Shown here one piece after another: positions 13,188-64,000 of a stretch of 64,000 nucleotides of DNA (within the stretch, counting starts at the first letter, position 1; each line of letters starts with the position of its first letter). The DNA lies in contig CP126205.1 in NCBI GenBank assembly GCA_030272155.1, positions 3,460,501-3,524,500 of the forward strand, given 5' to 3'. A program made the position numbers and the translations under genes. The notes under the pieces were generated by a model, which was not told the origin of the DNA, ran no database searches, and was given only the letters and a program-made list of their open reading frames with translations. The DNA comes from Tetradesmus obliquus (taxonomy: Eukaryota; Chlorophyta; Chlorophyceae; Sphaeropleales; Scenedesmaceae).

Positions 13188-15199
13188 CTTGACATGCAAA
13201 GGTAAGCGGAGCGGCCTTCGAATTGTCGCTGCGGTCGAATTTTCGGTCCAGCGCGCGCACCGGCCCATTTTGGAAAGGTGCTTGGTGGACATCGTGAAAG
13301 TATAATTATTGTTATAACTCTTTGTAAAATGTTGATATCTCAAAATTCAAGCCATACGAAAGTCCTGGCTGAAGGATGCGGGTTGGCAAGGGTGCCGGTG
13401 CACCGCCACTGGAAAGTCACTGGTCGGCTAAAAAAAAAAAGGTAAGCGGAGCGGCCTTCAAATTGTCGCTGCGGTCGAATTTTCGGTCCGGCGCGCGCAC
13501 CGGTACATTTTGGAAAGGTGCTTGGTGGACATCGTGAAAGTATAATTATTGTTATAACTCTTTGTAAAATGTTGATTACTCAAAATTCAAGCCATACGAA
13601 AGTCCTAGCTTTTTTTTATTGTTCGAAAGTCCTGGCTGAAGGATGCGGGTTGGCAAGGGTGCCGGTGCACCGCCACTGGAAGGTGCCGGTGCACCGCCAC
13701 TGGAAAGTCACTGGTCGGCTAAAAATCCTACTGGTCGCTTTTCTCCCGTACGTTCCGTCACCAAGCATGTGCGGCCTTCACCTGCCTAGGACCGACATGC
13801 AAAGGTAAGCGGAGCGGCCTTCAAATTGTCGCTGCGGTCGAATTTTCGGTCCAGTCACGGTCTGTCACACATCACAGGACGTCATTGCGCGACTGTGATT
13901 TTTTTTTGTTTGAAGCAAGAACGTTACAAGGGCTAACCAAAATAACTGTGCACTGGCTGAAGGATGCGGGTTGGCAAGGGTGCCGGTGCACCGCCACAGG
14001 AAAGTCACTGGTCGGCTAAAATTCCTACTGGTCGTTTTTCTCCCGTACGTTCCATCACCAAGCATGTGAGGCCTTCAATTGCTTAGGACCGACATGCAAA
14101 GGTAAGTGGAACGGCCTTCGAATTGTCGCTGCGGTCGAATTTGTGGTCCGGCGCGCGCACCGGCCCATTTTGGAAAGGTGCTTGGTGGACATCGCAAGTG
14201 CACAGTTATTTAGGTCAACCCTTGTAACGTTCTTGCTTCAAAAAAAAAAAAGTATAATTATTGTTATAACTCTTTGTAAAATGTTGATTTCTCAAAATTC
14301 AAGCCATACGAAAGTCCTGGCTGAAGGATGCGGGATGGCAAGGGTGCCGGTGCACCGCCACTGGAAAGTCACTGGTCGGCTAAAAATCCTACTGGTCGCT
14401 TTTCTCCCGTGCGTTCCGTCACCAAGCATGTGCGGCCTTCACCTGCCTAGGACCGACATGCAAAGGTAAGCGGAGCGGCCTTCGAATTGTTGCTGCGGTC
14501 GAATTTTCGGTCCGGCGCGCGCACCGGCCCATTTTGGAAAGGTGCTTGGTGGACATCGTGAAAGTATAAAGATTGTTATTACTCTTTGTAAAATGTTGAT
14601 TTCTCAAAATTCAAGCCATACGAAAGTCCTGGCTGAAGGATGCGGGTTGGCAAGGGTGCCGGTGCACCGCCACTGGAAAGTCACTGGTCGGCTAAAATTC
14701 CTACTGGTCGCTTTTCTCCCGTACGTTCCGTCACCAAGCATGTGCGGCCTTCACCTGCCTAGGACCGACATGCAAAGGTAAGCGGAGCGGCCTTCGAATT
14801 GTCGCTGCGGTCGAATTTTCGGTCCGGCGCGCGCACCGGCCCATTTTGGAAAGGTGCTTGGTGGACATCGTGAAAGTATAATTATTGTTATTACTCTTTG
14901 TAAAATGTTGATATCTCAAAATTCAAGCCATACGAAAGTCCTGGCTGAAGGATGCGGGTTGGCAAGGGTGCCGGTGCACCGCCACTGGAAAGTCACTGGT
15001 CGGCTAAAATTCCTACTGGTCGCTTTTCTCCCGTACATTCCGTCACCAAGCATGTGCGGCCTTCACCTGCCTAGGACCGACATGCAAAGGTAAGCGGAGC
15101 GGCCTTCGAATTGTCGCTGCGGTCGAATTTTCGGTCCGGCGCGCGCACCGGCCCATTTTGGAAAGGTGCTTGCTGGACATCGTGAAAGTATAATTATTG

Positions 15200-15298
15200 T
15201 TTTTTTTTTTTTTTTTTTTTTTTTTTGAAGCAAGAACGTTACAAGGGCGGACCTAAATAACCGTGCACTTGCTCCATAAAAAGATCCATTGAGAAAAA
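15200..15298 (-). mobile_element. Short LINE tail in a satellite monomer
   Basis: T-run (15200-15226) and about 70 bp of LINE 3' end, flanked by a duplication ATAATTATTGTT at 15190-15201 and 15299-15310. The same insertion recurs at about 30942-31040 through duplication of the surrounding array. Confidence 0.85.
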
Positions 15299-15679
15299 AT
15301 AATTATTGTTATTACTCTTTGTAAAATGTTGATTTCTCAAAATTCAAGCCATACGAAAGTCCTGGCTGAAGGATGCGGGTTGGCAAGGGTGCCGGTGCAC
15401 CGCCACTGGAAAGTCACTGGTCGGCTAAAATTCCTACTGGTCGCTTTTCTCCCGTACGTTCCGTCACCAAGCATGTGCGGCCTTCACCTGCCTAGGACCG
15501 ACATGCAAAGGTAAGCGGAGCGGCCTTCGAATTGTCGCTGCGGTCGAATTTTCGGTCCGGCGCGCGCACCGGCCCATTTTGGAAAGGTGCTTGGTGGACA
15601 TCGTGAAAGTAAAATTATTGTTATAACTCTTTGTAAAATGTTGATATCTCAAAATTTAAGCCATACGAAAGTCCTGGCT

Positions 15680-15727
15680 TTTTTTTTTTTGAAGCAAGAA
15701 CGTTACTGCTTTCTTTATTTTATTGTT
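15680..15727 (-). mobile_element. Very short LINE tail in a satellite monomer
   Basis: T-run, 16 bp of LINE terminus (GAAGCAAGAACGTTAC), and about 20 bp of unrelated T-rich sequence, flanked by a 14-bp duplication CGAAAGTCCTGGCT at 15666-15679 and 15728-15741. The same event recurs near 31430, 34000, 36935, 39970, 48040, 51570, 55100, 56145, 60892 and 63723. Confidence 0.82.
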
Positions 15728-17940
15728 CGAAAGTCCTGGCTGAAGGATGCGGGTTGGCAAGGGTGCCGGTGCACCGCCACTGGAAAGTCACTGGTCGGCT
15801 AAAATTCCTACTGGTCGCTTTTCTCCCGTACGTTCCGTCACCAAGCATGTGCGGCCTTCACCTGCCTAGGACCGACATGCAAAGGTAAGCGGAGCGGCCT
15901 TCGAATTGTCGCTGCGGTCGAATTTTCGGTCCGGCGCGCGCACCGGCCCATTTTGGAAAGGTGCTTGGAGGACATCGTGAAAATATAATTATTGTTATTA
16001 CTCTTTGTAAAATGTTGATTACTCAAAATTCAAGCCATACGAAAGTCCTGGCTGAAGGATGCGGGTTGGCAAGGGTGCCGGGGCACCGCCACTGGAAAGT
16101 CACTGGTCGGCTAAAAATCCTACTGGTCGCTTTTCTCCCGTGCGTTCCGTCACCAAGCATGTGCGGCCTTCACCTGCCTAGGACCGACATGCAAAGGTAA
16201 GCGGAGCGGCCTTCGAATTGTCGCTGCGGTCGAATTTTCGGTCCGGCGCGCGCACCGGCCCATTTTGGAAAGGTGCTTGGTGGACATCGTGAAAGTATAA
16301 TTATTGTTATTACTCTTTGTAAAATGTTGATTACTCAAAATTCAAGCCATACGAAAGTCCTGGCTGAAGGATGCGGGTTGGCAAGGGTGCCGGTGCACCG
16401 CCACTGGAAAGTCACTGGTCGGCTAAAAATCCTACTGGTCGCTTTTCTCCCGTACGTTCCGTCACCAAGCATGTGCGGCCTTCACCTGCCTAGGACCGAC
16501 ATGCAAAGGTAAGCGGAGCGGCCTTCGAATTGTCGCTGCGGCCGAATTTTCGGTCCGGCGCGCGCACCGGCCCATTTTGGACAGGTGCTTGGTGGACATC
16601 GTGAAAGTATAATTATTGTTATAACTCTTTGTAAAATGTTGATTACTCAAAATTCAAGCCATACGAAAGTCCTAGCTTTTTTTTATTGTTCGAAAGTCCT
16701 GGCTGAAGGATGCGGGTTGGCAAGGGTGCCGGTGCACCGCCACTGGAAGGTGCCGGTGCACCGCCACTGGAAAGTCACTGGTCGGCTAAAATTCCTACTG
16801 GTCGCTTTTCTCCCGTACGTTCCGTCACCAAGCATGTGCGGCCTTCACCTGCCTAGGACCGACATGCAAAGGTAAGCGGAGCGGCCTTCAAATTGTCGCT
16901 GCGGTCGAATTTTCGGTCCAGTCACGGTCTGTCACACATCACAGGACGTCATTGCGCGACTGTGATTTTTTTTTGTTTGAAGCAAGAACGTTACAAGGGC
17001 TAACCAAAATAACTGTGCACTGGCTGAAGGATGCGGGTTGGCAAGGGTGCCGGTGCACCGCCACAGGAAAGTCACTGGTCGGCTAAAATTCCTACTGGTC
17101 GTTTTTCTCCCGTACGTTCCATCACCAAGCATGTGAGGCCTTCACCTGCCTAGGACCGACATGCAAAGGTAAGCGGAGCGGCCTTCGAATTGTTGCTGCG
17201 GTCGAATTTTCGGTCCGGCGCGCGCACCGGCCCATTTTGGAAAGGTGCTTGGTGGACATCGTGAAAGTATAAAGATTGTTATTACTCTTTGTAAAATGTT
17301 GATTTCTCAAAATTCAAGCCATACGAAAGTCCTGGCTGAAGGATGCGGGTTGGCAAGGGTGCCGGTGCACCGCCACTGGAAAGTCACTGGTCGGCTAAAA
17401 TTCCTACTGGTCGCTTTTCTCCCGTACGTTCCGTCACCAAGCATGTGCGGCCTTCACCTGCCTAGGACCGACATGCAAAGGTAAGCGGAGCGGCCTTCGA
17501 ATTGTCGCTGCGGTCGAATTTTCGGTCCGGCGCGCGCACCGGCCCATTTTGGAAAGGTGCTTGGTGGACATCGTGAAAGTATAATTATTGTTATAACTCT
17601 TTGTAAAATGTTGATTACTCAAAATTCAAGCCATACGAAAGTCCTAGCTTTTTTTTATTGTTCGAAAGTCCTGGCTGAAGGATGCGGGTTGGCAAGGGTG
17701 CCGGTGCACCGCCACTGGAAAGTCACTGGTCGGCTAAAATTCCTACTGGTCGCTTTTCTCCCGTACGTTCCGTCACCAAGCATGTGAGGCCTTCATTTGC
17801 TTAGGACCGACATGCAAAGGTAAGCGGAGCGGCCTTCGAATTGTCGCTGCGGTCGAATTTTCGGTCCAGTCACGGTCTGTCACACATCACAGGACGTCAT
17901 TGCGCGACTGTGATTTTTTTTGTTTGAAGCAAGAACGTTA

Positions 17941-19343: not shown

Positions 19344-19392
19344 CGACTGTGATTTTTTTTTTTTTTTTTTTTTTTTTGTTTGAAGCAAGAAC

Positions 19393-19425
<33 letters not shown>

Positions 19426-19526
19426 AAGCAAGAACGTTACAAGGGCTGACCTAAATAACTGTGCACTTGCTCCATAAAAAGATCCATTGAGAGAGTGAGG
19501 CAACCTGTTCCGCACTCACTCCACAG

Positions 19527-19545
19527 GTCTCTTGTACCAAGAGAC
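19527..19545 (-). other. Conserved hairpin near the LINE 3' end
   Basis: GTCTCTTGTACCAAGAGAC: 8-bp perfect stem, 3-base loop, about 100 nt before the poly-A start on the LINE sense strand. It is kept in nearly every copy long enough to include it. A role in recognition by the reverse transcriptase is possible but is inference. Confidence 0.6.
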
Positions 19546-19793
19546 GCTGTCACACGATCATGCAGACAGCCCCTTGCGGAGCAGCCCCGAAAGGCATCCA
19601 GGACCTGACCGAGTGCCCAGACTCCACTAAAATCACAGTCGCGCAATGACGTCCTGTGATGTGTGACATACCGTGACTGGCCCTTGAAACAAAATCTGTC
19701 CATGGCGTAACTGTCAGCTATCACTGCATGGTGACTTGTACACCTCTACAAGCTGCACTTTACATGGCAGCATTACGACACCTACACAAGACG

Positions 19794-19831
19794 CCTATTA
19801 ATAGGTGACGGATTGTCGACACAGACAATCC
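19794..19831 (-). other. Palindrome and stem-loop in LINE 3' UTR
   Basis: A 12-bp palindrome CCTATTAATAGG (19794-19805) is followed by a stem-loop with arms GGATTGTC (19810-19817) and GACAATCC (19824-19831). Both are conserved in the copies at about 18.3, 28.5, 45.2, 58.3 and 63.1 kb. Confidence 0.55.
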
Positions 19832-20212
19832 CCACCTGACTATTCATTGACTCTCCACTTCATGCAAAGCACATCCTGCTACTGACCGAACATACACCTA
19901 TGAGATATGTGGCATTCTGTAGGAAATGACACCACCTCAGGCACACAAAGCCACACACACACAAACTAATCCACACATGCTGCACACATCCTCGTACACT
20001 GCTACCCACACGCACGCATACATAACGTACTCTGCTACCCACTCACATGCATACATAACGTATCCCGGCCATCAACTTAGCCTTTGCCATACTATTTTGC
20101 AACACATCACAACGAGGAACGACGGCCACTACTCCAACGAATGCATTGTACCCCCCGCCCGAACCGTCAAAACAGACCACCACGCCTCTTAGACCCGTGC
20201 CCAATCCATCCC

Positions 20213-21635
20213 TCACATGCCAGCCGCGCTGGCCCGAACCTTGATGCGCCCATTTGCGCCCATCCTATACAGTGCTCCCCACTTCTGCTCAAAGTCAACA
20301 AGTTTGATCTCAGGCGACCTTCCCTGCAGCCATGCAAACGGTATCCCACAACCTATCCTAACATCTACTTCCACCCTATCCCACTCCCTCTGAATTTGCT
20401 GCCGCAGCTCTGCCAGAAACCTACACGCCACAGCCTTAGCAGCGTATGATGAGCTGCCCGGCTCGCCAGTTGTACCCCGTTGACTGCCCATGCTGCTGCT
20501 GTTGCTGCTGCTGTCCTCTGCATCGCTGATGCCGTGGCTCTGAGATTGAGAATTGCTGCCTGCATTGCGGCTGCCGCTGCCATCGCTGCCATCTGCACTG
20601 GCCACAATCACGCCAGCCCTGATGCTGCTGCAGCGCACCACCCAAATGGACTCCAGCAGCAGCAGACGCAGCTGCGTCCACATCTGCTGCTGCCCTGCTG
20701 GCGGGGCCCACACACTGAAGTCATCCAGCAGCAGCAGACGGCTGTTATTAACAGGGACCACTGCTCCGGGCTGCACACGCTGCCACACCTGTTGCGCGTA
20801 CCACTGCCACGCTGCTGCAGCTACAGGGCACTCCACTAACAAGTGGGTGAGGGTCTCCAGTTGCTGCGGCTGCTGGCACTGCTGTGCTGGGCAGGTAAAG
20901 TGAGCCGGCGCGTGTCTGCTGGATGCCAGCATGCGCCGTGCGCCTACCTTCACTCCTGCATGCAGAAGCCGCCAGCCAAACACTCGCAGCCGCCTCGGCA
21001 GCTGGGTGTCTTTTAGCCGCTGATAACTCGCCACCCAGCGGTGCTGCATGGCATTGGCAGCACCCATGGAGTGAGTGATCGGGTCCAGTAGATCATTGTG
21101 TGCTGGGCAGCTGATGCGCTGCTGTTGCTGCTCCTGTTGCTGCCGTTGAGCCGTGACTACTGCTGCTGCTGTTGCCGCGCGCTGTCTTGGCAGCTCCCGC
21201 TCCCTGGACGGATCCATCCAGGACGCATGGTAAGCCGCCATCATAGCTGCGTCGCTAAACCGCTGGCTGCCACTGCTGCTGCTGCTACGATTGCCAGGCG
21301 CCTCGCTATTTTGCTGCATTTGCTGGAAGGACCGTTTCTGAGCTGCCTCCATCTCCTGCAAGCCGTCCTGTGGCGCCTCAGCACCCAGGCGGTTGCGCCA
21401 CAGGCGCGGGCGCATGCCGACACCTGATAGCCATCCCTCTTTGCACTGCCGACTGCATTGCTCCTGCAGCAGCCTGCATGTTGCCACCTTTGGCGTGAAC
21501 TGCAGCAAGCTGACAGCAAACCCCATCCCCCATACACTAGGATCTACGCGAATGTCTGCCCAAGCCCCCACCAGGTACCATGACGGCGTGCTTCGCGATT
21601 GCTGCTGCTGCTGCTGTTGCTGGTGCTGTCCTTGG

Positions 21636-21686
<51 letters not shown>

Positions 21687-24600
21687 CCCTGGTGGTGCTG
21701 CTGCTGCTGCTGCTGCTGCTGCCGTTCCTGTTGTTGCTGCTGTCGCGGCTGCTGCTGTTGCCATGCAGCTGGCTGCTGCAGCTGCTGCTGCTGACGTTCC
21801 TGTTGTTGCTGCTGTCGTGGCTGCCGCTGTTGCCGTGCTGCTGGCTGCTGCCGCTGTTGCTGCTGCTGCTGCCGCTGCTGCCGCTGCTGTTGTTGCCGCT
21901 GAAATGCAGGGTGCGGCACTGCTGTTACATCTACCACACAACATGGCGCCCATTGGAGGGCTGCTGTGTCCATTAGGACAGCTGTTGTGGCCTTCAAGCT
22001 GCCATCCTGCTGCACCTTGTAGCACTTGGTGGTGCCGTCGTGCTGCAACTGTTGTGCCCATTGTTGCTGCGTGTCGGTCTGCCATGCACCTGTGCTGCCC
22101 TCCCGCAGAGTGTGCAGCCATGCCGGCGGCAGCACAATGCCATCTTGCTGCGGCTGTCCAGTTAGCTGCTGCTGCACCTGCCCCAGTGTGGTGCCTGCGC
22201 CGTGGCGCAGCTGAGCAGGGAGGGCACCGGCTGCTGCCAACATCTGCCCATCTGAGCTGCTGCCCACGCTGTGGTTCCCCACCAGCAGCTCAAGCTGGAT
22301 CTGCTGGCTGGTCATGGCGCTGTGCTCGACGTGCCTGTGAATGCCCACGCTTTGCAGCGCCTCTATGTATGCTGATAGGCGCAGCGGCAGCCTGCCGCCC
22401 CTGGCGGCAGCCTGCAGCGGCGCCTTTGATCGCTGCACCAACGCTGCCTCCCCTAGTCCTGGCAGTGCGTGGCGCAGGTTGGCCCGCATGAAGGCCTTCC
22501 ATGGGGCTCGCCGCGGCGACAGCAATGCTGCTGCTGTACGTGCCTGCATTGCTGTGGCGTGCGCCCTGACATCAACCTGCCTCATTCCGCCCATGCTGAA
22601 AGGCAGGCTGGCCACTGCTGCCGGAGGGCTTTCATTCCACTGCCGGATGTTGGCTTCTCGAGCGCAGCCCTGCTCTGTCACAAACCCTAAGAGGCGGCGG
22701 TGCATCCTGGCCATGATATCTACTGGGACTGGCACGAACTGCGCATGATAGGTGATGCAAGATGCCATCATCTGCTGCGCAACTGCGCAGCGCCCCAAAT
22801 AGCTGAGATTCTGCCGTGCCCACTGCCGCGCCCGGTATGTGATGGTTTGCAGGCGCTGCGTGTACAGCGCTGCTGCATGCGGCTCTGCGCCTGCTGCTGA
22901 CAGCAGCAGACCCAGGTGCCTGATCGGGTGTAGTGCTGTATCATGGAACGGTATCTGCGTGGCTGGATCTACCCCTACAAACGGCTGCTGCGTGCCCACT
23001 TCCATGCCCTGGCACTTGCTGACTCCCAGCTTGGCGCCACTCGCTGCACAAAACGGCTGTACTGCTTTCCTCACCAGCACAGCAACGCCTTGCCTGCTGG
23101 CGGCGTGCAGGGTGGTGTCGTCTGCATGCTGCATGCTGCAGGGTGCTGCTGAGCCATCGGGCATGCTGATGCTGTCCACTTCCCCTGCTGCTTGCAGCGC
23201 TCTGCATTTGGCCGCCAGCGGCTGCGCTGCTAGCACATACAGCAGCGGGCTGAGTGGGCTGCCCTGCGCGCAGCCAGAGGGGATGTCAAACACCCTGCTG
23301 AGGTGGCCGCCGTTGAACACGATGCGGCCCTGTGTGCCTGCCAGCAGCAGCTGTACCCACCTACGCATGCCTGGCGGGAACTGCATTGCTGCCATGCACT
23401 TCATCAGCCATTCCCTGTCTAGCCTGTCATAGGCCTTCTCAAAATCCAGAAACAAAATGCAGCCGGGCTGCTGCTGCGTCCTGAGGAAGTCAACTTCCTC
23501 CAGGTGCAGCAGCACATTGTCTGCAATGTCCCTGCCTGGAACAAACGCTGTCTGAGTGCTGTCCACGACGCTGTCCAGCACTGGCGCCGCCCGCAGCACC
23601 ACCACCTTCGCCAGAATTTTCACATCACAGTTCATCAGCGTGATGGGGCGGTAGCTGGCAGCCTGGTCCCTTGGCTTACCGCCACCCTTGAACAGTAAGG
23701 TGATGAGCCCAAGGCGCTGCTGCGGAGACAGCAGCGCCCCCTCCAGACCAAACCGGAAGTTGCATGCTGCCACAAAAGCTGGTCCTAGCTGCTCCCAGAA
23801 TGCGCTATAGAACTCATACGTGAGCCCATCGCTGCCTGGCACCTTCCCTCTAGGCATGCTGTTGAGTGCCGCTGTCGCCTCCTCCAAGGTGATGGTGCCG
23901 TCGCCTGCAGGGCCCAGGCATTGCTGTTGCTGCTCCGAAGAAAGCTGCTTATCCACACACGCAAGCAGCTCCTGCTGCTGCTGTGGGTCGGTGGGGCGTC
24001 GCGAGAACAGCCCGTCTTCTGCAGGGTCATAAAAGTCTGCAAGCAGGCTGCCTGCTGCTGCCGCGCCCTCGCTGCTGCCAGTGGACACTGTGGTGCCATC
24101 TGCTGCAGCCACAGCGCTGATATACTGCGGCTCCGGCACGGCCTGCCCTAGCCTCGCTCCCCAAAAGCTAGACGGGCCATCAGCGTACAGCTCGTACATC
24201 GCATCAGTCTTCTCCTGCTGCTGCTGGCGTTGCTGCACTTCATAATCCAGCAACTGCTGTTCTGCATGCTGAAGGTTGGTTTGCGTCTGCCCATTGCTGT
24301 GCTGGCGCTGCTGCCAGCCGGCTGTTGCCACCGCCCTGCGCAGCCGCCTAAGTTCTGCCTGCTGCTGCAGCCTCTGTCGCTGCATTATGACTGCAGTGGC
24401 AGTCACAGCATGCTGCTTAAGGTGCTCAAACTCAGCTGCTGGGTTGTTGCGCGGCCGCTGCTGCTGCTGCTGCTCCACCGCTGCTGACAGGCTCTCCTGC
24501 ATAGCTGAGACAAAAGCTGCGCCACCCAGAGCAGAGGTGGGGAAGCACCACCTGCGCTGTCCAAGGAGCGGCATGCCAGGCGGCCGCAGCTTGACAACCA

Positions 24601-24822
24601 CAGGGCGGTGATCTGAAGGCTGCCTCATGTGCTGTGTGGCCTTCTGCAGCCAGCCCTCCTCAACCAGGTCTGCTGACAAGAAGACATAGTCAATCCTGCC
24701 GGCTGACGTGGCTTGATTTGCTGCTGCTGGCTGGCCCTGATCTCGCCTGCTGCCTGCTGCTGCTGCAGCCGCTACTGCAGCCGCCGCGGCTGCAGCATGA
24801 GCTGTGGCTGTAGCGTCTGTTA

Positions 24823-24871
<49 letters not shown>

Positions 24872-25594
24872 GGCGGCTGCCGCGTTGCTGCTGCCAGCTG
24901 CGCTGCCATGGTAGCTGTAATGCGTAGGCTGCCTGGCGTGCGGGTTGCAGTGTCGCCACGCATCCACCAGGCCCGAGCGCACAGTGACGCGCTGCAGCTG
25001 CGCTGCCCCCACCATGCGGCGCGAGTGTCGCGCCCGCGTGCCAGCCACTGGCTGCACGTCGATTTCCTGCAAGGCACAGTTGAAGTCCCCGCCCACAATC
25101 AGGCTGGACCCCTGCGCGCCTGCCTCCAGTGCCTCCTGATAAGGCCCCTGAAGCCAGGCTGGGCGCCCCGTGGGTTCGTGCGGCGCATACACCGCCACCG
25201 CTGCCAGCTGCTGGCCCCACGGCGTTGTCCAGGCTACCCTGAGTAACCTGCCCTGCCCGTCTGTAAACTCAATCACAGGTTCTGTGTCCTGTTGAACTAT
25301 TCTCTGACTTAGCAGTACTGCCACCCCAACTGAAGCTTGTACGCCAACTTCCAAGGGCTTGCTATTTGCATAGCAGTACCCTTGCCACGGCCTGCCGTGC
25401 CCTGCTCCCTGCTGCGCCCACTGCTGCATCTGCTGGTCGGACCTGCTGTGGGTTTCTGAAAGCAACACAACATCAGACGCCTGCTTCTGCAGCCAAGCAA
25501 AGAAATCCCTTCGCTTGCCTGCAGCAGCCAAGCCGTTGACATTTACAGCTGCCACGCAGAGGGGCCGCAGTCCGTGCGCTCCTGTTGGCGGCAT
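20213..25594 (-). CDS. LINE ORF2 protein: APE endonuclease, reverse transcriptase, zinc-finger tail (1793 aa)
   Basis: Retrotransposon enzyme that nicks target DNA and reverse transcribes its own RNA. Endonuclease, about 10-345: AAVNVNGL, LLSETH, GGDFNCAL (about 166), RIDYVFLS, SDHRPVVV (about 327), i.e. the full set of catalytic Asn, Glu, Asp and His. Reverse transcriptase, about 570-880: YRPITLMNCD, FLDFEKAYDRLD (about 718), GCAQGSPLSPLLY, and HADDTT (about 825), a variant of the usual YADD. A long polyQ linker lies at about 1230-1330. The C terminus has CPAQQC...THLLVECP (about 1567-1590), a CCHC-type zinc motif as in the zf-RVT domain of plant L1 elements. No RNase H domain was recognised. 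The ATG overlaps the ORF1 stop as TAATG, so reinitiation after ORF1 is likely. The frame is intact. Confidence 0.93.
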
Positions 25595-26366
25595 TAAGAT
25601 CCGCGCCCGCCGCGAAGGCGGGACTGCTGTGCTGGAGTGGCAGGCTGCGTGGCTGGCTGTGTCGCTGTTACTATTGTGTTGTGGTGCTGCTGCTGCGGCA
25701 GTGACGCTAGTACTGCAAAGTTGTTGACGTTGTGGCCAAAGACAGGGTTTGGCTCCTTGCGCTGCCGGCTGGGGTAGCGCCCTACGGGTGGTGACGATGC
25801 TGCACCTGCTGCTGCTGGTGTTGCTGTCCTGGTCGACTTCGCCGCTGCTGCTGCTGCTGCAGCTGCTGCTGCAGCTGCTGTTGCAGCAGACTGCCGCGCC
25901 GTCCTACCCTTAGCCCCCTGGCCCCTGCCCTGAGCTGTGTTGCTGTCTGCTGCTGCCGTTGCTCCAGCCGCAACTGTGCTCATCCCTCCCCTACCATACT
26001 CAGCATCCTCGTATGAGGCTGCTGCAACAGCAGGGAAGTGCTGCTGCAGCCACTGCTGCACAAACAGCGCCTCTTCTGCTTTAGACACTAAGGCTGCACC
26101 ATGCTGCATGTAGAACGCACTCAGCATATCTCCCTTCACCTGCTCAGTGAACTGGCCACTGTCCAGTTTGCCCTGCAGGGTATCGCTGAGGGACTCCTCC
26201 ATCTCCGTGTGGCATTGGCCTGGCCGGGCTATCTCTGCTGCTGCTGCTGCTGCTGCGGCGGCTGCTCCTGCTGGCGTGGCTGTGGCGGCAGCTGCATCCG
26301 GCTGCTGGGCAAACGGGTCCAGAGGGAATGCTGCATCCATGCAGGCAGCAGCAGTCTGCGCTGTGG

Positions 26367-26419
<53 letters not shown>

Positions 26420-26549: not shown

Positions 26550-26584
<35 letters not shown>

Positions 26585-26999: not shown

Positions 27000-27012
27000 C
27001 GACTGTGATTTT

Positions 27013-49916: not shown

Positions 49917-52900
49917 TTTGAAGCAAGAACGTTACAAGGGCTAACCAAAATAACTGTGCACTGGCTGAAGGATGCGGGTTGGCAAGGGTGCCGGTGCACC
50001 GCCACAGGAAAGTCACTGGTCGGCTAAAATTCCTACTGGTCGTTTTTCTCCCGTACGTTCCATCACCAAGCATGTGAGGCCTTCAATTGCTTAGGACCGA
50101 CATGCAAAGGTAAGTGGAACGGCCTTCGAATTGTCGCTGCGGTCGAATTTGTGGTCCGGCGCGCGCACCGGCCCATTTTGGAAAGGTGCTTGGTGGACAT
50201 CGCAAGTGCACAGTTATTTAGGTCAACCCTTGTAACGTTCTTGCTTCAAAAAAAAAAAAGTATAATTATTGTTATAACTCTTTGTAAAATGTTGATTTCT
50301 CAAAATTCAAGCCATACGAAAGTCCTGGCTGAAGGATGCGGGATGGCAAGGGTGCCGGTGCACCGCCACTGGAAAGTCACTGGTCGGCTAAAAATCCTAC
50401 TGGTCGCTTTTCTCCCGTGCGTTCCGTCACCAAGCATGTGCGGCCTTCACCTGCCTAGGACCGACATGCAAAGGTAAGCGGAGCGGCCTTCGAATTGTTG
50501 CTGCGGTCGAATTTTCGGTCCGGCGCGCGCACCGGCCCATTTTGGAAAGGTGCTTTTTTTTTTTTTTTTTTTTATTTTGAAGCAAGAACGTTACAAGGGC
50601 GGACCTAAATAACTGTGCACTTGCTCCATAAAAAGATCCATTGAGAGAATGAGGCAACCTGTTCCGCACTCACTCCACAGGTCTCTTGTACCAAGAAAGG
50701 TGCTTGGTGGACATCGTGAAAGTATAAAGATTGTTATAACTCTTTGTAAAATGTTGATTTCTCAAAATTCAAGCCATACGAAAGTCCTGGCTGAAGGATG
50801 CGGGTTGGCAAGGGTGCCGGTGCACCGCCACTGGAAAGTCACTGGTCGGCTAAAATTCCTACTGGTCGCTTTTCTCCCGTACGTTCCGTCACCAAGCATG
50901 TGCGGCCTTCACCTGCCTAGGACCGACATGCAAAGGTAAGCGGAGCGGCCTTCGAATCGTCGCTGCGGTCGAATTTTCGGTCCGGCGCGCGCACCGGCCC
51001 ATTTTGGAAAGGTGCTTTTTTTTTTTTTTTTTTTTTTATTTTGAAGCAAGAACGTTACAAGGGCGGACCTAAATAACTGTGCACTTGCTCCATAAAAAGA
51101 TCCATTGAGAGAATGAGGCAACCTGTTCCGCACTCACTCCACAGGTCTCTTGTACCAAGAAAGGTGCTTGGTGGACATCGTGAAAGTATAAAGATTGTTA
51201 TTACTCTTTGTAAAATGTTGATTTCTCAAAATTCAAGCCATACGAAAGTCCTGGCTGAAGGATGCGGGTTGGCAAGGGTGCCGGTGCACCGCCACTGGAA
51301 AGTCACTGGTCGGCTAAAATTCCTACTGGTCGCTTTTCTCCCGTACGTTCCGTCACCAAGCATGTGCGGCCTTCACCTGCCTAGGACCGACATGCAAAGG
51401 TAAGCGGAGCGGCCTTCGAATTGTCGCTGCGGTCGAATTTTCGGTCCGGCGCGCGCACCGGCCCATTTTGGAAAGGTGCTTGGTGGACATCGTGAAAGTA
51501 AAATTATTGTTATAACTCTTTGTAAAATGTTGATATCTCAAAATTTAAGCCATACGAAAGTCCTGGCTTTTTTTTTTTTGAAGCAAGAACGTTACTGCTT
51601 TCTTTATTTTATTGTTCGAAAGTCCTGGCTGAAGGATGCGGGTTGGCAAGGGTGCCGGTGCACCGCCACTGGAAAGTCACTGGTCGGCTAAAATTCCTAC
51701 TGGTCGCTTTTCTCCCGTACGTTCCGTCACCAAGCATGTGCGGCCTTCACCTGCCTAGGACCGACATGCAAAGGTAAGCTGAGCGGCCTTCGAATTGTCG
51801 CTGCGGTCGAATTTTCGGTCCGGCGCGCGCACCGGCCCATTTTGGAAAGGTGCTTGGAGGACATCGTGAAAATATAATTATTGTTATAACTCTTTGTAAA
51901 ATGTTGATTACTCAAAATTCAAGCCATACGAAAGTCCTGGCTGAAGGATGCGGGTTGGCAAGGGTGCCGGGGCACCGCCACTGGAAAGTCACTGGTCGGC
52001 TAAAAATCCTACTGGTCGCTTTTCTCCCGTGCGTTCCGTCACCAAGCATGTGCGGCCTTCACCTGCCTAGGACCGACATGCAAAGGTAAGCGGAGCGGCC
52101 TTCGAATTGTCGCTGCGGTCGAATTTTCGGTCCGGCGCGCGCACCGGCCCATTTTGGAAAGGTGCTTGGTGGACATCGTGAAAGTATAATTATTGTTATT
52201 ACTCTTTGTAAAATGTTGATTACTCAAAATTCAAGCCATACGAAAGTCCTGGCTGAAGGATGCGGGTTGGCAAGGGTGCCGGTGCACCGCCACTGGAAAG
52301 TCACTGGTCGGCTAAAAATCCTACTGGTCGCTTTTCTCCCGTACGTTCCGTCACCAAGCATGTGCGGCCTTCACCTGCCTAGGACCGACATGCAAAGGTA
52401 AGCGGAGCGGCCTTCGAATTGTCGCTGCGGTCGAATTTTCGGTCCGGCGCGCGCACCGGCCCATTTTGGACAGGTGCTTGGTGGACATCGTGAAAGTATA
52501 ATTATTGTTATAACTCTTTGTAAAATGTTGATTACTCAAAATTCAAGCCATACGAAAGTCCTAGCTTTTTTTTATTGTTCGAAAGTCCTGGCTGAAGGAT
52601 GCGGGTTGGCAAGGGTGCCGGTGCACCGCCACTGGAAGGTGCCGGTGCACCGCCACTGGAAAGTCACTGGTCGGCTAAAATTCCTACTGGTCGCTTTTCT
52701 CCCGTACGTTCCGTCACCAAGCATGTGCGGCCTTCACCTGCCTAGGACCGACATGCAAAGGTAAGCGGAGCGGCCTTCAAATTGTCGCTGCGGTCGAATT
52801 TTCGGTCCAGTCACGGTCTGTCACACATCACAGGACGTCATTGCGCGACTGCGGAACAGGTTGCCTCACTCTCTCAATGGATCTTTTTATGGAGCAAGTG

Positions 52901-53405
52901 CACAGTTATTTAGGTCAGCCCTTGTAACGTTCTTGCTTCAAAAAAAAAAAAAAAAAAAAAAAAAATTGCGCGACTGGGTTTTTTTTTTTTTTTTTTTTTT
53001 GAAGCAAGAACGTTACAAGGGCTGACCTAAATAACTGTGCACTTGCTCCATAAAACGATCCATTGAGAGAGTGAGGCAACCTGTTCCGCACTCACTCCAC
53101 AGGTCTCTTGTACCAAGAGACGCTGTCACACGATCATGCAGACAGCCCCTTGCGACTGCGATTTTAGTGGAGTCTGGGCACTCGGTCAGGTCCTGGATGC
53201 CTTTCGGGGCTGCTCCGCAAGGGGCTGTCTGCATGATCGTGTGACAGCGTCTCTTGGTACAAGAGACCTGTGGAGTGAGTGCGGAACAGGTTGCCTCACT
53301 CTCTCAATGGATCTTTTTATGGAGCAAGTGCACAGTTATTTAGGTCAGCCCTTGTAACGTTCTTGCTTCCAAAAAAAAAAAAAAAAAAAAAAAATTGCGC
53401 GACTG

Positions 53406-53446
<41 letters not shown>

Positions 53447-55923
53447 TTTGAAGCAAGAACGTTACAAGGGCTAACCAAAATAACTGTGCACTGGCTGAAG
53501 GATGCGGGTTGGCAAGGGTGCCGGTGCACCGCCACAGGAAAGTCACTGGTCGGCTAAAATTCCTACTGGTCGTTTTTCTCCCGTACGTTCCATCACCAAG
53601 CATGTGAGGCCTTCAATTGCTTAGGACCGACATGCAAAGGTAAGTGGAACGGCCTTCGAATTGTCGCTGCGGTCGAATTTGTGGTCCGGCGCGCGCACCG
53701 GCCCATTTTGGAAAGGTGCTTGGTGGACATCGCAAGTGCACAGTTATTTAGGTCAACCCTTGTAACGTTCTTGCTTCAAAAAAAAAAAAGTATAATTATT
53801 GTTATAACTCTTTGTAAAATGTTGATTTCTCAAAATTCAAGCCATACGAAAGTCCTGGCTGAAGGATGCGGGATGGCAAGGGTGCCGGTGCACCGCCACT
53901 GGAAAGTCACTGGTCGGCTAAAAATCCTACTGGTCGCTTTTCTCCCGTGCGTTCCGTCACCAAGCATGTGCGGCCTTCACCTGCCTAGGACCGACATGCA
54001 AAGGTAAGCGGAGCGGCCTTCGAATTGTTGCTGCGGTCGAATTTTCGGTCCGGCGCGCGCACCGGCCCATTTTGGAAAGGTGCTTTTTTTTTTTTTTTTT
54101 TTTATTTTGAAGCAAGAACGTTACAAGGGCGGACCTAAATAACTGTGCACTTGCTCCATAAAAAGATCCATTGAGAGAATGAGGCAACCTGTTCCGCACT
54201 CACTCCACAGGTCTCTTGTACCAAGAAAGGTGCTTGGTGGACATCGTGAAAGTATAAAGATTGTTATAACTCTTTGTAAAATGTTGATTTCTCAAAATTC
54301 AAGCCATACGAAAGTCCTGGCTGAAGGATGCGGGTTGGCAAGGGTGCCGGTGCACCGCCACTGGAAAGTCACTGGTCGGCTAAAATTCCTACTGGTCGCT
54401 TTTCTCCCGTACGTTCCGTCACCAAGCATGTGCGGCCTTCACCTGCCTAGGACCGACATGCAAAGGTAAGCGGAGCGGCCTTCGAATTGTCGCTGCGGTC
54501 GAATTTTCGGTCCGGCGCGCGCACCGGCCCATTTTGGAAAGGTGCTTTTTTTTTTTTTTTTTTTTTTATTTTGAAGCAAGAACGTTACAAGGGCGGACCT
54601 AAATAACTGTGCACTTGCTCCATAAAAAGATCCATTGAGAGAATGAGGCAACCTGTTCCGCACTCACTCCACAGGTCTCTTGTACCAAGAAAGGTGCTTG
54701 GTGGACATCGTGAAAGTATAAAGATTGTTATTACTCTTTGTAAAATGTTGATTTCTCAAAATTCAAGCCATACGAAAGTCCTGGCTGAAGGATGCGGGTT
54801 GGCAAGGGTGCCGGTGCACCGCCACTGGAAAGTCACTGGTCGGCTAAAATTCCTACTGGTCGCTTTTCTCCCGTACGTTCCGTCACCAAGCATGTGCGGC
54901 CTTCACCTGCCTAGGACCGACATGCAAAGGTAAGCGGAGCGGCCTTCGAATTGTCGCTGCGGTCGAATTTTCGGTCCGGCGCGCGCACCGGCCCATTTTG
55001 GAAAGGTGCTTGGTGGACATCGTGAAAGTAAAATTATTGTTATAACTCTTTGTAAAATGTTGATATCTCAAAATTTAAGCCATACGAAAGTCCTGGCTTT
55101 TTTTTTTTTGAAGCAAGAACGTTACTGCTTTCTTTATTTTATTGTTCGAAAGTCCTGGCTGAAGGATGCGGGTTGGCAAGGGTGCCGGTGCACCGCCACT
55201 GGAAAGTCACTGGTCGGCTAAAATTCCTACTGGTCGCTTTTCTCCCGTACGTTCCGTCACCAAGCATGTGCGGCCTTCACCTGCCTAGGACCGACATGCA
55301 AAGGTAAGCTGAGCGGCCTTCGAATTGTCGCTGCGGTCGAATTTTCGGTCCGGCGCGCGCACCGGCCCATTTTGGAAAGGTGCTTGGAGGACATCGTGAA
55401 AATATAATTATTGTTATAACTCTTTGTAAAATGTTGATTACTCAAAATTCAAGCCATACGAAAGTCCTGGCTGAAGGATGCGGGTTGGCAAGGGTGCCGG
55501 GGCACCGCCACTGGAAAGTCACTGGTCGGCTAAAAATCCTACTGGTCGCTTTTCTCCCGTGCGTTCCGTCACCAAGCATGTGCGGCCTTCACCTGCCTAG
55601 GACCGACATGCAAAGGTAAGCGGAGCGGCCTTCGAATTGTCGCTGCGGTCGAATTTTCGGTCCGGCGCGCGCACCGGCCCATTTTGGAAAGGTGCTTGGT
55701 GGACATCGTGAAAGTATAATTATTGTTATTACTCTTTGTAAAATGTTGATTACTCAAAATTCAAGCCATACGAAAGTCCTGGCTGAAGGATGCGGGTTGG
55801 CAAGGGTGCCGGTGCACCGCCACTGGAAAGTCACTGGTCGGCTAAAATTCCTACTGGTCGCTTTTCTCCCGTACGTTCCGTCACCAAGCATGTGCGGCCT
55901 TCACCTGCCTAGGACCGACATGC

Positions 55924-55955
<32 letters not shown>

Positions 55956-57588: not shown

Positions 57589-58717
57589 GTTCTCAATCTC
57601 AGAGCCACGGCATCAGCGATGCAGAGGACAGCAGCAGCAACAGCAGCAGCATGGGCAGTCAACGGGGTACAACTGGCGAGCCGGGCAGCTCATCATACGC
57701 TGCTAAGGCTGTGGCGTGTAGGTTTCTGGCAGAGCTGCGGCAGCAAATTCAGAGGGAGTGGGATAGGGTGGAAGTAGATGTTAGGATAGGTTGTGGGATA
57801 CCGTTTGCATGGCTGCAGGGAAGGTCGCCTGAGATCAAACTTGTTGACTTTGAGCAGAAGTGGGGAGCACTGTATAGGATGGGCGCAAATGGGCGCGTCA
57901 AGGTTCGGGCCAGCGCGGCGGGCATGTGAGGGATGGATTGGGCACGGGTCTACGAGGCGTGGTGGTCTGTCTTGACGGTTCGGGCAGGGTGTACAATGCA
58001 TTCGTTGGAGTAGTGGCCGTCGTTCCTCGTTGTGATGTGTTGCAAAATAGTATGGCAAAGGCTAAGTTGATGGCCGGGATACGTTATGTATGCATGTGAG
58101 TGGGTAGCAGAGTACGTTATGTATGCGTGCGTGTGGGTAGCAGAGTACGAGGATGTGTGCAGCATGTGTGGATAAGTTTGTGTGTGTGTGGCTTTGTGTG
58201 CCTGAGGTGGTGTCATTTCCTACAGAATGCCACATATCTCATAGGGGTGTGTTCGGTCAGTAGCAGGATGTGCTTTGCATGAAGTGGAGAGTCTATGAAT
58301 GGTCAGGTGGGGATTGTCTGTGTCGACAATCCGTCACCTATTAATAGGCGTCTTGTGTAGGTGTCGTAATGCTGCCTGTAAAGTGCAGCTTTTAGAGGTG
58401 TGCAAGTCACCATGCAGCGATAGATAACAGTTACACTATGCTGACAGTTTTTGTTTCAAGGGCCAGTCACGGTCTGTCACACATCACAGGACGTCATTGC
58501 GCGACTGTGATTTTAGTGGAGTCTGGGCACTCGGTCAGGTCCTGGATGCCCCTCGGGGCTGCTCCGCAAGGGGCTGTCTGCATGATCGTGTGACAGCGTC
58601 TCTTGGTACAAGAGACCTGTGGAGTGAGTGCGGAACAGGTTGCCTCATTCTCTCAATGGATCTTTTTAAGGAGCAAGTGCACGGTTATTTAGGTCCGCCC
58701 TTGTAACGTTCTTGCTT

Positions 58718-58755
<38 letters not shown>
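57589..58755 (+). mobile_element. 5'-truncated LINE copy, plus orientation
   Basis: Starts inside ORF2 near its end, includes the ORF2 stop (57927-57929) and the full 3' UTR, and ends in poly-A (58719-58755). The right flank repeats ACGTTCTTGCTTC and A's, i.e. it inserted into the poly-A junction of another LINE tail. It shares sub-lineage variants with the 44.8-kb copy (GTTATCTATCGCTGCATGG form). Confidence 0.85.
57590..57929 (+). pseudogene. LINE ORF2 C-terminal fragment
   Basis: About 112 codons matching the end of ORF2, from SQSQSHGISDAEDSS to the terminal ASAAGM. The frame is intact but has no start of its own; it is a truncation product only. Confidence 0.85.
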
Positions 58756-58756
<1 letters not shown>

Positions 58757-59285
58757 GTTCTTGCTTCAAAAAAAAAAAAAAAAAAAAAAATTGCGCGACT
58801 GCGATTTTTTTTTTTTTTTTTTTTGAAGCAAGAACGTTACAAGGGCTGACCTAAATAACTGTGCACTTGCTCCATAAAAAGATCCATTGAGAGAGTGAGG
58901 CAACCTGTTCCGCACTCACTCCACAGGTCTCTTGTACCAAGAGACGCTGTCACACGATCATGCAGACAGCCCCTTGCGACTGCGATTTTAGTGGAGTCTG
59001 GGCACTCGGTCAGGTCCTGGATGCCTTTCGGGGCTGCTCCGCAAGGGGCTGTCTGCATGATCGTGTGACAGCGTCTCTTGGTACAAGAGACCTGTGGAGT
59101 GAGTGCGGAACAGGTTGCCTCACTCTCTCAATGGATCTTTTTATGGAGCAAGTGCACAGTTATTTAGGTCAGCCCTTGTAACGTTCTTGCTTCCAAAAAA
59201 AAAAAAAAAAAAAAAAAATTGCGCGACTGTGATTTTTTTTTGTTTGAAGCAAGAACGTTACAAGGGCTAACCAAAATAACTGTGC
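58756..59285. mobile_element. Head-to-head LINE tails and adjoining short tail
   Basis: Remnant plus tail with poly-A (to about 58790), then the same head-to-head pair described at 32.8-33.2 kb (58806-59217), then a minus-oriented tail (59239-59285) that runs into satellite. Confidence 0.82.
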
Positions 59286-62200: not shown

Positions 62201-62340
62201 GGGTGCCGGTGCACCGCCACTGGAAAGTCACTGGTCGGCTAAAATTCCTACTGGTCGCTTTTCTCCCGTACGTTCCGTCACCAAGCATGTGCGGCCTTCA
62301 CCTGCCTAGGACCGACATGCAAAGGTAAGCGGAGCGGCCT
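59286..62340 (+). repeat. Satellite block 6 with four composite units
   Basis: 312-bp monomers, with composite LINE-tail units at about 59.8-60.7 kb (period 462) and 61.4-62.3 kb (period 458). It ends inside a monomer where the next LINE inserted. No gene is seen. Confidence 0.9.
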
Positions 62341-63522
62341 GGCGTGATTGTGGCCAGTACAGATGGCAGCGATGGCAGCGGCAGCCGCAATGCAGGCAGC
62401 AATTCTCAATCTCAGAGCCACGGCATCAGCGATGCAGAGGACAGCAGCAGCAGCAGCATGGGCAGTCAACGGGGTACAACTGGCGAGCCGGGCAGCTCAT
62501 CATACGCTGCTAAGGCTGTGGCGTGTAGGTTTCTGGCAGCGCTGCGGCAGCAAATTCAGAGGGAGTGGGATAGGGTGGAAGTAGATGTTAGGATAGGTTG
62601 TGGGATACCGTTTGCATGGCTGCAGGGAAGGTCGCCTGAGATCAAACTTGTTGACTTTGAGCAGAAGTGGGGAGCACTGTATAGGATGGGCGCAAATGGG
62701 CGCATCAAGGTTCGGGCCAGCGCGGCTGGCATGTGAGGGATGGATTGGGCACGGGTCTACGAGGCGTGGTGGTGTGTTTTGACGGTTCGGGCGGGGGGTA
62801 CAATGCATTCGTTGGAGTAGTGGCCGTCGTTCCTCGTTGTGATGTGTTGCAAAATAGTATGGCAAAGGCTAAGCTGATGGCCGGGATACGTTATGTATGC
62901 ATGTGAGTGGGTAGCAGAGTACGTTATGTATGCGTGCGTGTGGGTAGCAGTGTACGAGGATGTGTGCAGCATGTGTGGATTAGTTTGTGTGTGTGTGGCT
63001 TTGTGTGCCTGAGGTGGTGTCATTTCCTACAGAATGCCACGTATCTCATAGGTGTATGTTCGGTCAGTAGCAGGATGTGCTTTGCATGAAGTGGAGAGTC
63101 AATGAATAGTCAGGTGGGGATTGTCTGTGTCGACAATCCGTCACCTATTAATAGGCGTCTTGTGTAGGTGTCGTAATGCTGCCTGTAAAGTGCAGCTTGT
63201 AGAGGTGTACAAGTCACCATGCAGTGATAGCTGACAGTTACGCCATGGACAGATTTTGTTTCAAGGGCCAGTCACGGTATGTCACACATCACAGGACGTC
63301 ATTGCGCGGCTGTGATTTTAGTGGAGTCTGGGCACTCGGTCAGGTCCTGGATGCCTTTCGGGGCTGCTCCGCAAGGGGCTGTCTGCATGATCGTGTGACA
63401 GCGTCTCTTGGTACAAGAGACCTGTGGAGTGAGTGCGGAACAGGTTGCCTCACTCTCTCAATGGATCTTTTTATGGAGCAAGTGCACAGTTATTTAGGTC
63501 CGCCCTTGTAACGTTCTTGCTT

Positions 63523-63557
<35 letters not shown>
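62341..63557 (+). mobile_element. 5'-truncated LINE copy, plus orientation
   Basis: Contains the last 131 codons of ORF2, the full 3' UTR and poly-A (63525-63557). It is flanked by a 13-bp duplication AGCGGAGCGGCCT at 62328-62340 and 63558-63570. Insertion was directly into a satellite monomer. Confidence 0.9.
62344..62736 (+). pseudogene. LINE ORF2 C-terminal fragment
   Basis: Open frame corresponding to the C-terminal end of ORF2. Compared with the intact copy, it has lost part of a short Ser-coding AGC/AAC run and has a few substitutions. No start of its own. Confidence 0.85.
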
Positions 63558-63559
<2 letters not shown>

Positions 63560-64000
63560 CGGAGCGGCCTTCGAATTGTCGCTGCGGTCGAATTTTCGGT
63601 CCGGCGCGCGCACCGGCCCATTTTGGAAAGGTGCTTGGTGGACATCGTGAAAGTAAAATTATTGTTATAACTCTTTGTAAAATGTTGATATCTCAAAATT
63701 TAAGCCATACGAAAGTCCTGGCTTTTTTTTTTTGAAGCAAGAACGTTACTGCTTTCTTTATTTTATTGTTCGAAAGTCCTGGCTGAAGGATGCGGGTTGG
63801 CAAGGGTGCCGGTGCACCGCCACTGGAAAGTCACTGGTCGGCTAAAATTCCTACTGGTCGCTTTTCTCCCGTACGTTCCGTCACCAAGCATGTGCGGCCT
63901 TCACCTGCCTAGGACCGACATGCAAAGGTAAGCTGAGCGGCCTTCGAATTGTCGCTGCGGTCGAATTTTCGGTCCGGCGCGCGCACCGGCCCATTTTGGA
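63558..64000 (+). repeat. Satellite block 7, continues past the window
   Basis: 312-bp monomers, including the short-tail insertion at about 63723-63770, run to the right edge, so the array is longer than the window. Confidence 0.9.

Follow-up and report, generated by a model that had tools for sequence, protein, structure and literature searches.

What role does a stretch of more than 50 kb play in the interior of a green algal chromosome when it is filled almost entirely with a tandem satellite and pieces of one retrotransposon? The locus lies on contig CP126205.1 of Tetradesmus obliquus (C15), and the window, i.e., the whole stretch of DNA analysed, is 64,000 nucleotides long (C15:3460501-3524500). 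An earlier note had attributed to it the character of a centromere or pericentromere. The function is one that we infer, but our data support this assignment, and the window stretch is very probably part of a green algal centromere.

The satellite-LINE block of C15

The earlier note placed the block at 13188..64000. The block itself is real, but its borders lie elsewhere: the first LINE fragment is at 12,379 and the first satellite monomer at 13,191, and the block (unstranded; 12,379-64,000 within the window) continues to the equivalent of 87,636 (C15:3,548,136), 23.6 kb past the window, for a length of 75 kb. Positions 13,188-64,000 consist of 53.4% satellite, 44.3% LINE and 2.4% other sequence, although the LINE share is perhaps slightly high, with low-complexity filtering off and the gene-bearing left flank also scoring 6.6%. 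This composition leaves hardly any room for host genes, in agreement with the claim of more than 50 kb without one. The satellite share over 13,188-88,500 is 49.5%, so that satellite and LINE, which had been described as interwoven, each make up about half of the block. A telomeric or subtelomeric array is ruled out by the position of the block (3.47-3.55 of 4.55 Mb) and by telomere repeats at both C15 ends, and the window gave no Rfam match at gathering score and no tRNA, which argues against a ribosomal or other known RNA array.

The surroundings of the block bear on the possibility that such blocks are pericentromeric heterochromatin, with the CENH3 domain next to them or restricted to a minor portion. 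This would fit with another kind of tandem array (183 bp) that borders the C15 block on the right, and with the satellite-rich DNA that flanks CENP-A islands in Drosophila (PMC6516634). However, satellite is absent from window positions 1-12,378, both satellite and LINE are absent from the 10 kb that precede the window (L021) and from C15:3,554,501-3,564,500 (L020), and these flanks showed no further large array. Moreover, CENH3 peaks in Chlorella and poplar lie on the transposon-rich DNA itself (PMC11005252, PMC11288735). We therefore regard a purely pericentromeric identity as unlikely.

The satellite has a period of 312 bp (TRF on the window, mostly 96-98% matches) and is represented between 13,191 and 64,000 by 120 blast segments covering 27.1 kb, with all monomers in the same (+) orientation; over C15, 152 of 152 hits are on the + strand. 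Three uninterrupted monomers at 14,249-15,184 (+) include the reference copy (14,249-14,560), to which ungapped full-length monomers are 97.4-100% identical and interrupted or gapped ones less so; the earlier description of the monomers as nearly identical thus holds for the ungapped copies. A 60-bp core of the monomer (unit positions 110-169; 14,358-14,417, +, in the reference copy) is more conserved than column shuffles. It was the top result across five window sizes with two scores, 6 to 603 of 5000 shuffles reached the observed value, and the test used one monomer per contig without the partial C11 and C14 monomers. An origin of the satellite from the LINE was rejected, as monomer and LINE gave no match better than E = 0.28.

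As previously proposed, a single LINE family occurs in both orientations, its 84 3' ends within the window being divided between the + strand (31) and the - strand (53). Its pieces are poly(A)-tailed and mostly 5'-truncated, and many have target-site duplications. A long copy of ~7.6 kb (19,394-26,999, -, poly(A) at left) sits inside an older LINE fragment and is bounded by a 13-bp target-site duplication (unstranded) at 19,344-19,356 on its 3' side and 27,000-27,012 on its 5' side. Its ORF2 (20,213-25,903, -; 1,896 aa stop to stop) carries predicted APE endonuclease (Exo_endo_phos, 5e-12), reverse transcriptase (RVT_1, 1.3e-28) and zf-RVT domains, the last scoring under the curated cut-off, and its best PDB match is a LINE-1 ORF2 protein (8uw3, 4.7e-39). 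The element is accordingly of L1 type as judged from its predicted protein, with an APE endonuclease and a reverse transcriptase. An upstream open frame (25,594-27,015, -; 473 aa stop to stop), which overlaps ORF2, is a candidate ORF1 and had no Pfam match. No relatives of the LINE were confirmed in viral_contigs or genome_contigs. Other 5'-truncated copies lie at 44,834-47,253 (-) and, in the opposite orientation, at 57,590-58,790 (+) and 62,336-63,554 (+). A very short insertion in the satellite at 15,666-15,741 (-) has a 14-bp target-site duplication, with monomer positions 61-74 on both sides, and a short insertion at 36,381-36,537 (-), with a duplication of ~11 bp (monomer positions 289-299), is common to many repeated blocks.

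Insertion anatomy was followed at 260 LINE 3' ends in the window and 16 loci on 8 contigs, a sample in which repeated blocks count many times. Satellite or LINE comes at once after 198 of these ends and more than 25 bp on after 54, with neither after the remaining 8; LINE itself follows 130 (86 directly, 44 at a distance of more than 25 bp), i.e., 5'-truncated copies are nested within earlier copies, as in Zepp and ZeppL. A flank repeat of at least 9 bp was found within 400 bp upstream for 123 of 254 ends, compared with 25 of 254 when flank pieces of other insertions were used. The 260 ends comprise up to 120 different junctions, an upper bound because a shifted tail boundary can make one junction count as two, and this diversity speaks against a site-specific LINE; one target, located in the 3' UTR of the LINE itself, is nonetheless found repeatedly on C15.

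Satellite and LINE have also been re-amplified together, as had been suspected. A higher-order block of satellite plus LINE is present in two overlapping copies (47,861-52,399 and 51,390-55,929; together 47,861-55,929, unstranded), which align over 4,541 bp at 99.87% with a spacing of 3,529 bp, and a second pair, at 34,284 and 37,313, aligns over 3,536 bp at 99.46%. Such higher-order blocks thus occur on C15, and a 1.7-kb block was found on C10.

Distribution over seventeen contigs

Telomeric TTTAGGG arrays are present at 31 of the 34 contig ends, and the 17 contigs are near-complete chromosomes; three or more TTTTAGGG variants are also present at 8 of the 34 ends. Among 144 LINE ORF-end sites, 141 lie inside one interstitial interval per contig, on 17/17 contigs, the other three being a nested pair on C5 (4.666 Mb) and one truncated copy on C13 (3.172 Mb). 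This count covers copies within 3 mismatches of the patterns, and old diverged copies elsewhere could therefore be missed. All 33 RT-motif sites, on 13 contigs, fall inside the same intervals. The LINE thus forms a single interstitial cluster per chromosome and is nearly absent elsewhere, both of which characterise Zepp and ZeppL. The earlier note had suggested counting such loci per chromosome and held that arrays at many sites per chromosome, or at chromosome ends only, would speak against a centromere; for the LINE neither was found, and the satellite was followed by samples.

The satellite has relatives inside the interval of all 17 contigs, that on C17 being weak (133 of 700 bp matched, best stretch 73.75%). 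For C5, C7, C12 and C16 this rests on 700-bp samples, plus 158 bp in locus L042 for C16, and for C13 on a 6-kb portion of its interval; sequence that had been sampled for the LINE, 2.1 kb from C17 and 4.4 kb from C12, contained no satellite. Genome-wide, 100 of 771 matches were listed and 10 of 216 candidates scored, and there may be stray satellite elsewhere in the genome. Identity is 96.8-99.7% within a contig (six contigs) and 63-95% between contigs (12 contigs). The satellite therefore exists as chromosome-specific variants that are homologous between chromosomes. An exact 26-mer is apparently private to C15 (101 matches, all on C15 among the 100 listed), but diverged relatives on other contigs rule this out for the satellite as such. 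A related tandem satellite in every chromosome's one interval, homogenised by chromosome and arranged in higher-order blocks, is what is expected of a centromeric satellite.

Two further explanations were weighed against this distribution. The intervals could be a neutral graveyard, in which the LINE was purged elsewhere and the tandem repeats have no role in segregation, since a non-random LINE distribution alone is no proof of function and a neutral hotspot is mentioned by Blanc et al. (PMC3446292). But every one of the 17 near-complete chromosomes has one such interval, which also contains a homologous satellite, and it would be difficult for purging to leave the remaining ~100 Mb of DNA nearly free of the LINE, so that we consider this very improbable. 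Collapsed or misjoined repeats might also be suspected in DNA this repetitive, with copies up to 99.9% identical, and copy numbers in the assembly may be wrong. Nevertheless all seventeen contigs behave alike, no N occurs in the window or in 18 checked 10-kb loci, and the ends are telomeric as described, all of which makes an assembly artefact hardly credible.

An exon for a CENH3-like histone, read by eye from a PF00125 match, was found at C4:2,361,722 and marks the candidate gene for the CENH3 of this alga. Histone matches at C1:917,238 and 919,543 were rejected as CENH3, as they look like ordinary H3 genes with introns. Separately, about half of the aligned columns (39 of 79, by a count made by eye) are identical between a radial spoke exon and the RSP4 chain of PDB entry 7jtk, an entry that we take to be from C. 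reinhardtii.

A probable centromere of satellite and LINE

The C15 block is the one LINE cluster of its chromosome, interspersed with satellite, and very probably its regional centromere, or core plus pericentromere. The directional ~312-bp array would be the older platform, into which, and into its own earlier copies, a centromere-confined L1-type LINE would keep inserting by target-primed reverse transcription, as indicated by poly(A) tails, 5' truncation, target-site duplications, both orientations and many target sequences. Since the target sequences differ and the region is constant, the LINE most likely recognises centromeric chromatin and not a sequence. Unequal exchange or break repair would copy satellite and LINE jointly as higher-order blocks, as the duplications of up to 99.9% identity suggest, and would also keep the satellite homogeneous per chromosome, consistent with its chromosome-specific variants. 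CENH3 nucleosomes and the kinetochore would assemble on these repeats.

A more specific and rather doubtful proposal is that the centromere has two parts, a chromosome-specific satellite with a protein-binding 60-bp core and a chromatin-reading LINE. The core would be bound by a dedicated centromere protein and would thereby correspond, in this green alga, to the CENP-B box. The LINE would insert only in centromeric chromatin, its insertions seeding duplications that yield new higher-order blocks. If so, satellite and LINE would renew the centromere together, which would make it an intermediate between the satellite type of land plants and the LINE-only type of other green algae. More generally, 17 candidate centromeres in which a Zepp-like LINE occurs alongside a homologous satellite specific to the chromosome are a natural case for studying how satellite centromeres originate from or coexist with those built of transposons. 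They also bear on the questions of whether LINEs are able to read centromeric chromatin and whether their insertion gives rise to higher-order repeats; they offer 17 intervals, one monomer and one core motif for testing.

Comparison with known centromeres

Chromosome-specific higher-order alpha satellite is homogeneous within a chromosome and divergent between chromosomes, with higher-order blocks and a possible protein-binding box. The algal satellite resembles it in all these respects but is unrelated in length and setting, with a 312-bp unit and about half of the block made up of LINE.

Green algal centromeres have been described as transposon-based (Zepp, ZeppL, Copia), and the earlier statement that LINE clusters mark them agrees with the pattern published for Coccomyxa and Chlamydomonas. 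There is a close likeness to ZeppL-1_cRei (L1-1_CR) of Chlamydomonas reinhardtii, an L1-type LINE almost confined to one localised cluster per chromosome, a pattern that coincides with mapped centromeres, and to Zepp in its nested, 5'-truncated copies (PMC8226300, PMC10030371); the likeness extends to the ZeppL clusters of C. incerta, C. schloesseri, Edaphochlamys debaryana and Eudorina sp. ZeppL is the main centromere component together with other transposons, and on chromosomes 11 and 15 the centromeres have repeat-rich regions next to them (PMC8226300, PMC10030371). In contrast to ZeppL clusters, the C15 block owes about half of its length to a tandem satellite, whose chromosome-specific variants are homologous to one another; the excerpts of the green algal ZeppL/Zepp literature available to us describe no homologous centromere satellite. 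The block (~75 kb) is also smaller than the 252-480 kb of C. reinhardtii CC-5816, and the telomere repeat is TTTAGGG, as in Edaphochlamys, whereas Chlamydomonas has TTTTAGGG (PMC8226300). A TTTAGGG telomere is at odds with C. reinhardtii, C. incerta, C. schloesseri and Volvox carteri (PMC8226300). Coccomyxa subellipsoidea likewise has one cluster of nested Zepp per chromosome, probably centromeric, but its clusters span 1.5-42.3 kb and the available excerpts of that report mention no satellite (PMC3446292).

Beyond green algae, the L1-like Celine of poplar prefers CENH3 chromatin and some of its copies are self-nested (PMC11288735), although Celine inserts mostly into LTR retrotransposons and the LINE here into satellite and itself; CENH3 binding was shown for Celine and is predicted for the algal case. 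The G2/Jockey-3 islands of Drosophila share a LINE common to all centromeres, plus satellites, but there simple satellites flank the retroelement islands and the LINE also occurs elsewhere (PMC6516634), whereas here LINE and a complex 312-bp satellite alternate at intervals of a few hundred bp and hardly any LINE copies lie outside. Published Zepp-type cases have a pronounced single-element composition (PMC11005252), although this is not a strict criterion, and C15 departs from it with its 49.5% satellite over 13,188-88,500. For this reason the satellite-LINE block is classed as a variant of the Zepp/ZeppL-type LINE centromere and not a plain member, the likeness consisting in the cluster pattern, the nested, 5'-truncated copies and the L1-type enzyme.

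The satellite-LINE block of C15

The 312-bp satellite monomers of C15 (contig CP126205.1, one of 17 contigs, C1 to C17, in an assembly of 104,662,953 bases) lie on the + strand throughout from window position 13,191 on and are broken up by pieces of one L1-type LINE family. In window 13,188-64,000, satellite makes up 53.4%, neither repeat 2.4%, and LINE 44.3%, a share that the lack of low-complexity filtering may have raised slightly. When 40 kb to the right are included, the block extends to the equivalent of window position 87,636 (C15:3,548,136), and since C15 has 4,553,750 bases, it sits about 77% along the contig. Satellite and LINE are both absent from C15:3,450,501-3,460,500 and C15:3,554,501-3,564,500. 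The right border carries a different tandem array of 183/364 bp, about 1 kb long (positions 3,635-4,625 of C15:3,544,501-3,554,500), to which the 312-bp monomer gives no match. The left flank has tandem repeats of 253 bp (window 162-991) and 134/274 bp (window 2623-3205) and two - strand reading frames, one with a Nodulin-like match over the cut-off (window 6290-6922) and one with an NFD4_C match below it (window 2140-3843).

The LINE copy at window 19,394-26,999 is flanked on either side by a 13-bp target-site duplication and carries an open ORF2 that measures 1,896 aa from stop to stop. This frame matches endonuclease (PF03372, 5e-12) and reverse transcriptase (PF00078, 1.3e-28) domains and, below the cut-off, zf-RVT; the closest solved structure is that of a LINE-1 ORF2 protein (4.7e-39). 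Most other window copies are 5'-truncated. Across the window and 16 loci on eight contigs we collected 260 LINE 3' ends, which are not independent events, since each re-amplified copy was counted separately. They are followed directly by satellite in 112 cases and by LINE in 86; satellite (10) or LINE (44) begins more than 25 bp farther on in 54, and neither follows in eight. For 254 of the ends the upstream sequence is long enough to look for a flank repeat (9 bp or longer, no more than 400 bp away); 123 of them show one, against 25 of 254 in a control with flank pieces from other insertions. Told apart by their contig, their class and their first 14 bases, the junctions are of up to 120 kinds, which rules out a site-specific LINE.

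The earlier note had described the satellite as invaded by one LINE family in both orientations and then re-amplified, and both points are borne out, the first by the 84 3' ends in the window (31 on +, 53 on -), the second by duplications within the block. A 4,541-bp stretch recurs at 99.87% identity with a spacing of 3,529 bp, another of 3,536 bp at 99.46% with a spacing of 3,029 bp, and there are further repeats besides. Satellite and LINE pieces occur jointly inside these duplications, so those LINE insertions are older than the duplication. C10 has a tandemly repeated 1.7-kb unit (99%) in loci composed mostly of LINE, with 312-bp satellite.

LINE clusters across the assembly

A 776-bp query from the LINE 3' part matched at least 141 times, always within one interval per contig and on eight contigs, among the 40 of 571 candidates scored; for this reason short patterns, which return complete lists, were used for whole counts, covering the copies within the stated mismatches. 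With up to 3 mismatches allowed, the reverse transcriptase motif occurs at 33 sites on 13 contigs, in each contig inside a single interval. Sites of a 47-mer from the ORF2 end number 82 for subfamily A and 62 for subfamily B; the two subfamilies are 96-98% alike over the compared reverse transcriptase part and 88-90% toward the 3' end. Among these 144 ORF-end sites, 141 lie inside one interval per contig, each up to 170 kb, on all 17 contigs (in Mb: C1 4.42-4.54, C2 4.46-4.53, C3 5.16-5.24, C4 5.42-5.52, C5 2.61-2.71, C6 3.10-3.20, C7 2.48-2.54, C8 4.08-4.25, C9 4.13-4.21, C10 3.18-3.30, C11 3.77-3.85, C12 3.69-3.78, C13 1.97, C14 1.38-1.50, C15 3.47-3.55, C16 3.83-3.86 and C17 1.91-1.98); the limits are the outermost LINE or satellite sites found, and the real ones are possibly wider. 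On C1 and C8, stretches of some 80 kb inside the interval lack any pattern match. TTTAGGG arrays stand at 31 of the 34 contig ends, all of which were read (the exceptions are the C2 start, which reads N, and the C5 and C9 ends), and the contigs are therefore near-complete chromosomes and all intervals interstitial. The count of loci per chromosome proposed in the earlier note thus gives one interstitial interval on each of the 17 contigs.

The three remaining sites are a nested pair at C5 4.666 Mb and one truncated copy at C13 3.172 Mb; no satellite was found in the 6 kb read around either. The nested pair (C5:4,663,501-4,669,500) is of subfamily B, lies some 2 Mb away from the C5 cluster and is possibly the seed of a new one. 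The C13 copy (C13:3,169,501-3,175,500) is a lone 5'-truncated 1.18 kb, 1.2 Mb from the C13 cluster.

Subfamily A prevails on C2, C4, C6, C9, C10, C11, C13, C14 and C15, and B on C1, C3, C5, C7, C8, C12, C16 and C17; C7 and C12 carry both.

The satellite across chromosomes

Relatives of the C15 monomer occur in sampled interval loci of C2, C4, C6, C9, C10, C11 and C14 (few and partial on the last two), as well as of C1, C3, C8 and C13. Those on C5, C7, C12 and C16 are nearest to the C11 type, and on C17 just 133 of 700 bp match (best stretch 73.75%). Stretches of C17 (2.1 kb) and C12 (4.4 kb) taken for LINE held no satellite. All satellite matches fall inside the intervals, among the 100 of 771 matches listed in one search and the 10 of 216 candidates scored in another. 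Judged by similarity, every chromosome carries the satellite, in a form that varies from one chromosome to another, the C17 match being weak. On the six contigs compared, monomers within one contig are 96.8-99.7% alike and the majority sequences of the contigs 74-95%, while single monomers from 12 contigs are 63-95% alike; orientation is uniform within each of the eight contigs tested. The two satellite types match the A/B split only partly, as C1, C3 and C8 are nearer the C15 type but carry B, and C11 has a type of its own with A. C6:3,165,001-3,175,000 holds another tandem repeat, of 447 bp (99-100% identity), in two arrays at positions 1-5,515, whose printed units look oppositely oriented by eye.

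When single monomers of 10 contigs are compared over 291 of 312 columns, the partial ones of C11 and C14 being omitted, invariant columns are concentrated at monomer positions 110-169 (42 of 60), a value reached in 6 of 5000 shuffles of the columns. This excess shrinks at shorter windows and disappears when these are 20 columns wide (479 and 603 of 5000). This core, with its repeated motif CACTGG/TACTGG, suggests a site for a bound protein.

Comparison with known centromeres

We consider it very likely that the C15 block is a centromere, because the pattern of one LINE cluster per chromosome is that of Coccomyxa and Chlamydomonas and because centromeres of the green lineage can lie on transposon-rich DNA, as in Chlorella and poplar. 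The Coccomyxa LINE is nearly restricted to one cluster per chromosome and was proposed as a centromere marker (PMC3446292), in Chlamydomonas such clusters fall on the mapped centromeres (PMC8226300, PMC10030371), and CENH3 ChIP places green-lineage centromeres on transposon-rich DNA in Chlorella and poplar (PMC11005252, PMC11288735). Such a centromere would be built by LINE insertion, truncation, duplication and homogenisation, which have left traces in the arrays, with recognition of chromatin by the LINE and CENH3 loading as presumed further steps. By eye, C4:2,361,401-2,364,700 holds exons of a CENH3-like histone gene, apparently with introns, and, 2.7 kb away, another copy that has diverged; C1:916,601-920,400 has a tandem pair of histone H3 genes, also apparently with introns, which are perhaps replacement H3.

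Green algal centromeres published so far are described, in the parts seen, as transposon-dominated: for Chlamydomonas, ZeppL and other transposons are named, with repeat-rich regions adjoining two CC-5816 centromeres, and for Chlorella the centromeres of both genomes studied are stated to lack tandem satellites (PMC11005252), whereas the Tetradesmus obliquus intervals combine a LINE with a tandem satellite. Titles and abstract openings in partial literature listings, the Chlamydomonas version 6 paper lying outside them, gave no satellite within a green algal LINE centromere, and the combination is new for LINE-type green algal centromeres as far as found. The pairing itself is known from Drosophila, where satellite and LINE occur together at centromeres (PMC6516634), as they do here at proposed ones, and the Tetradesmus obliquus case is therefore a variation on a known theme.
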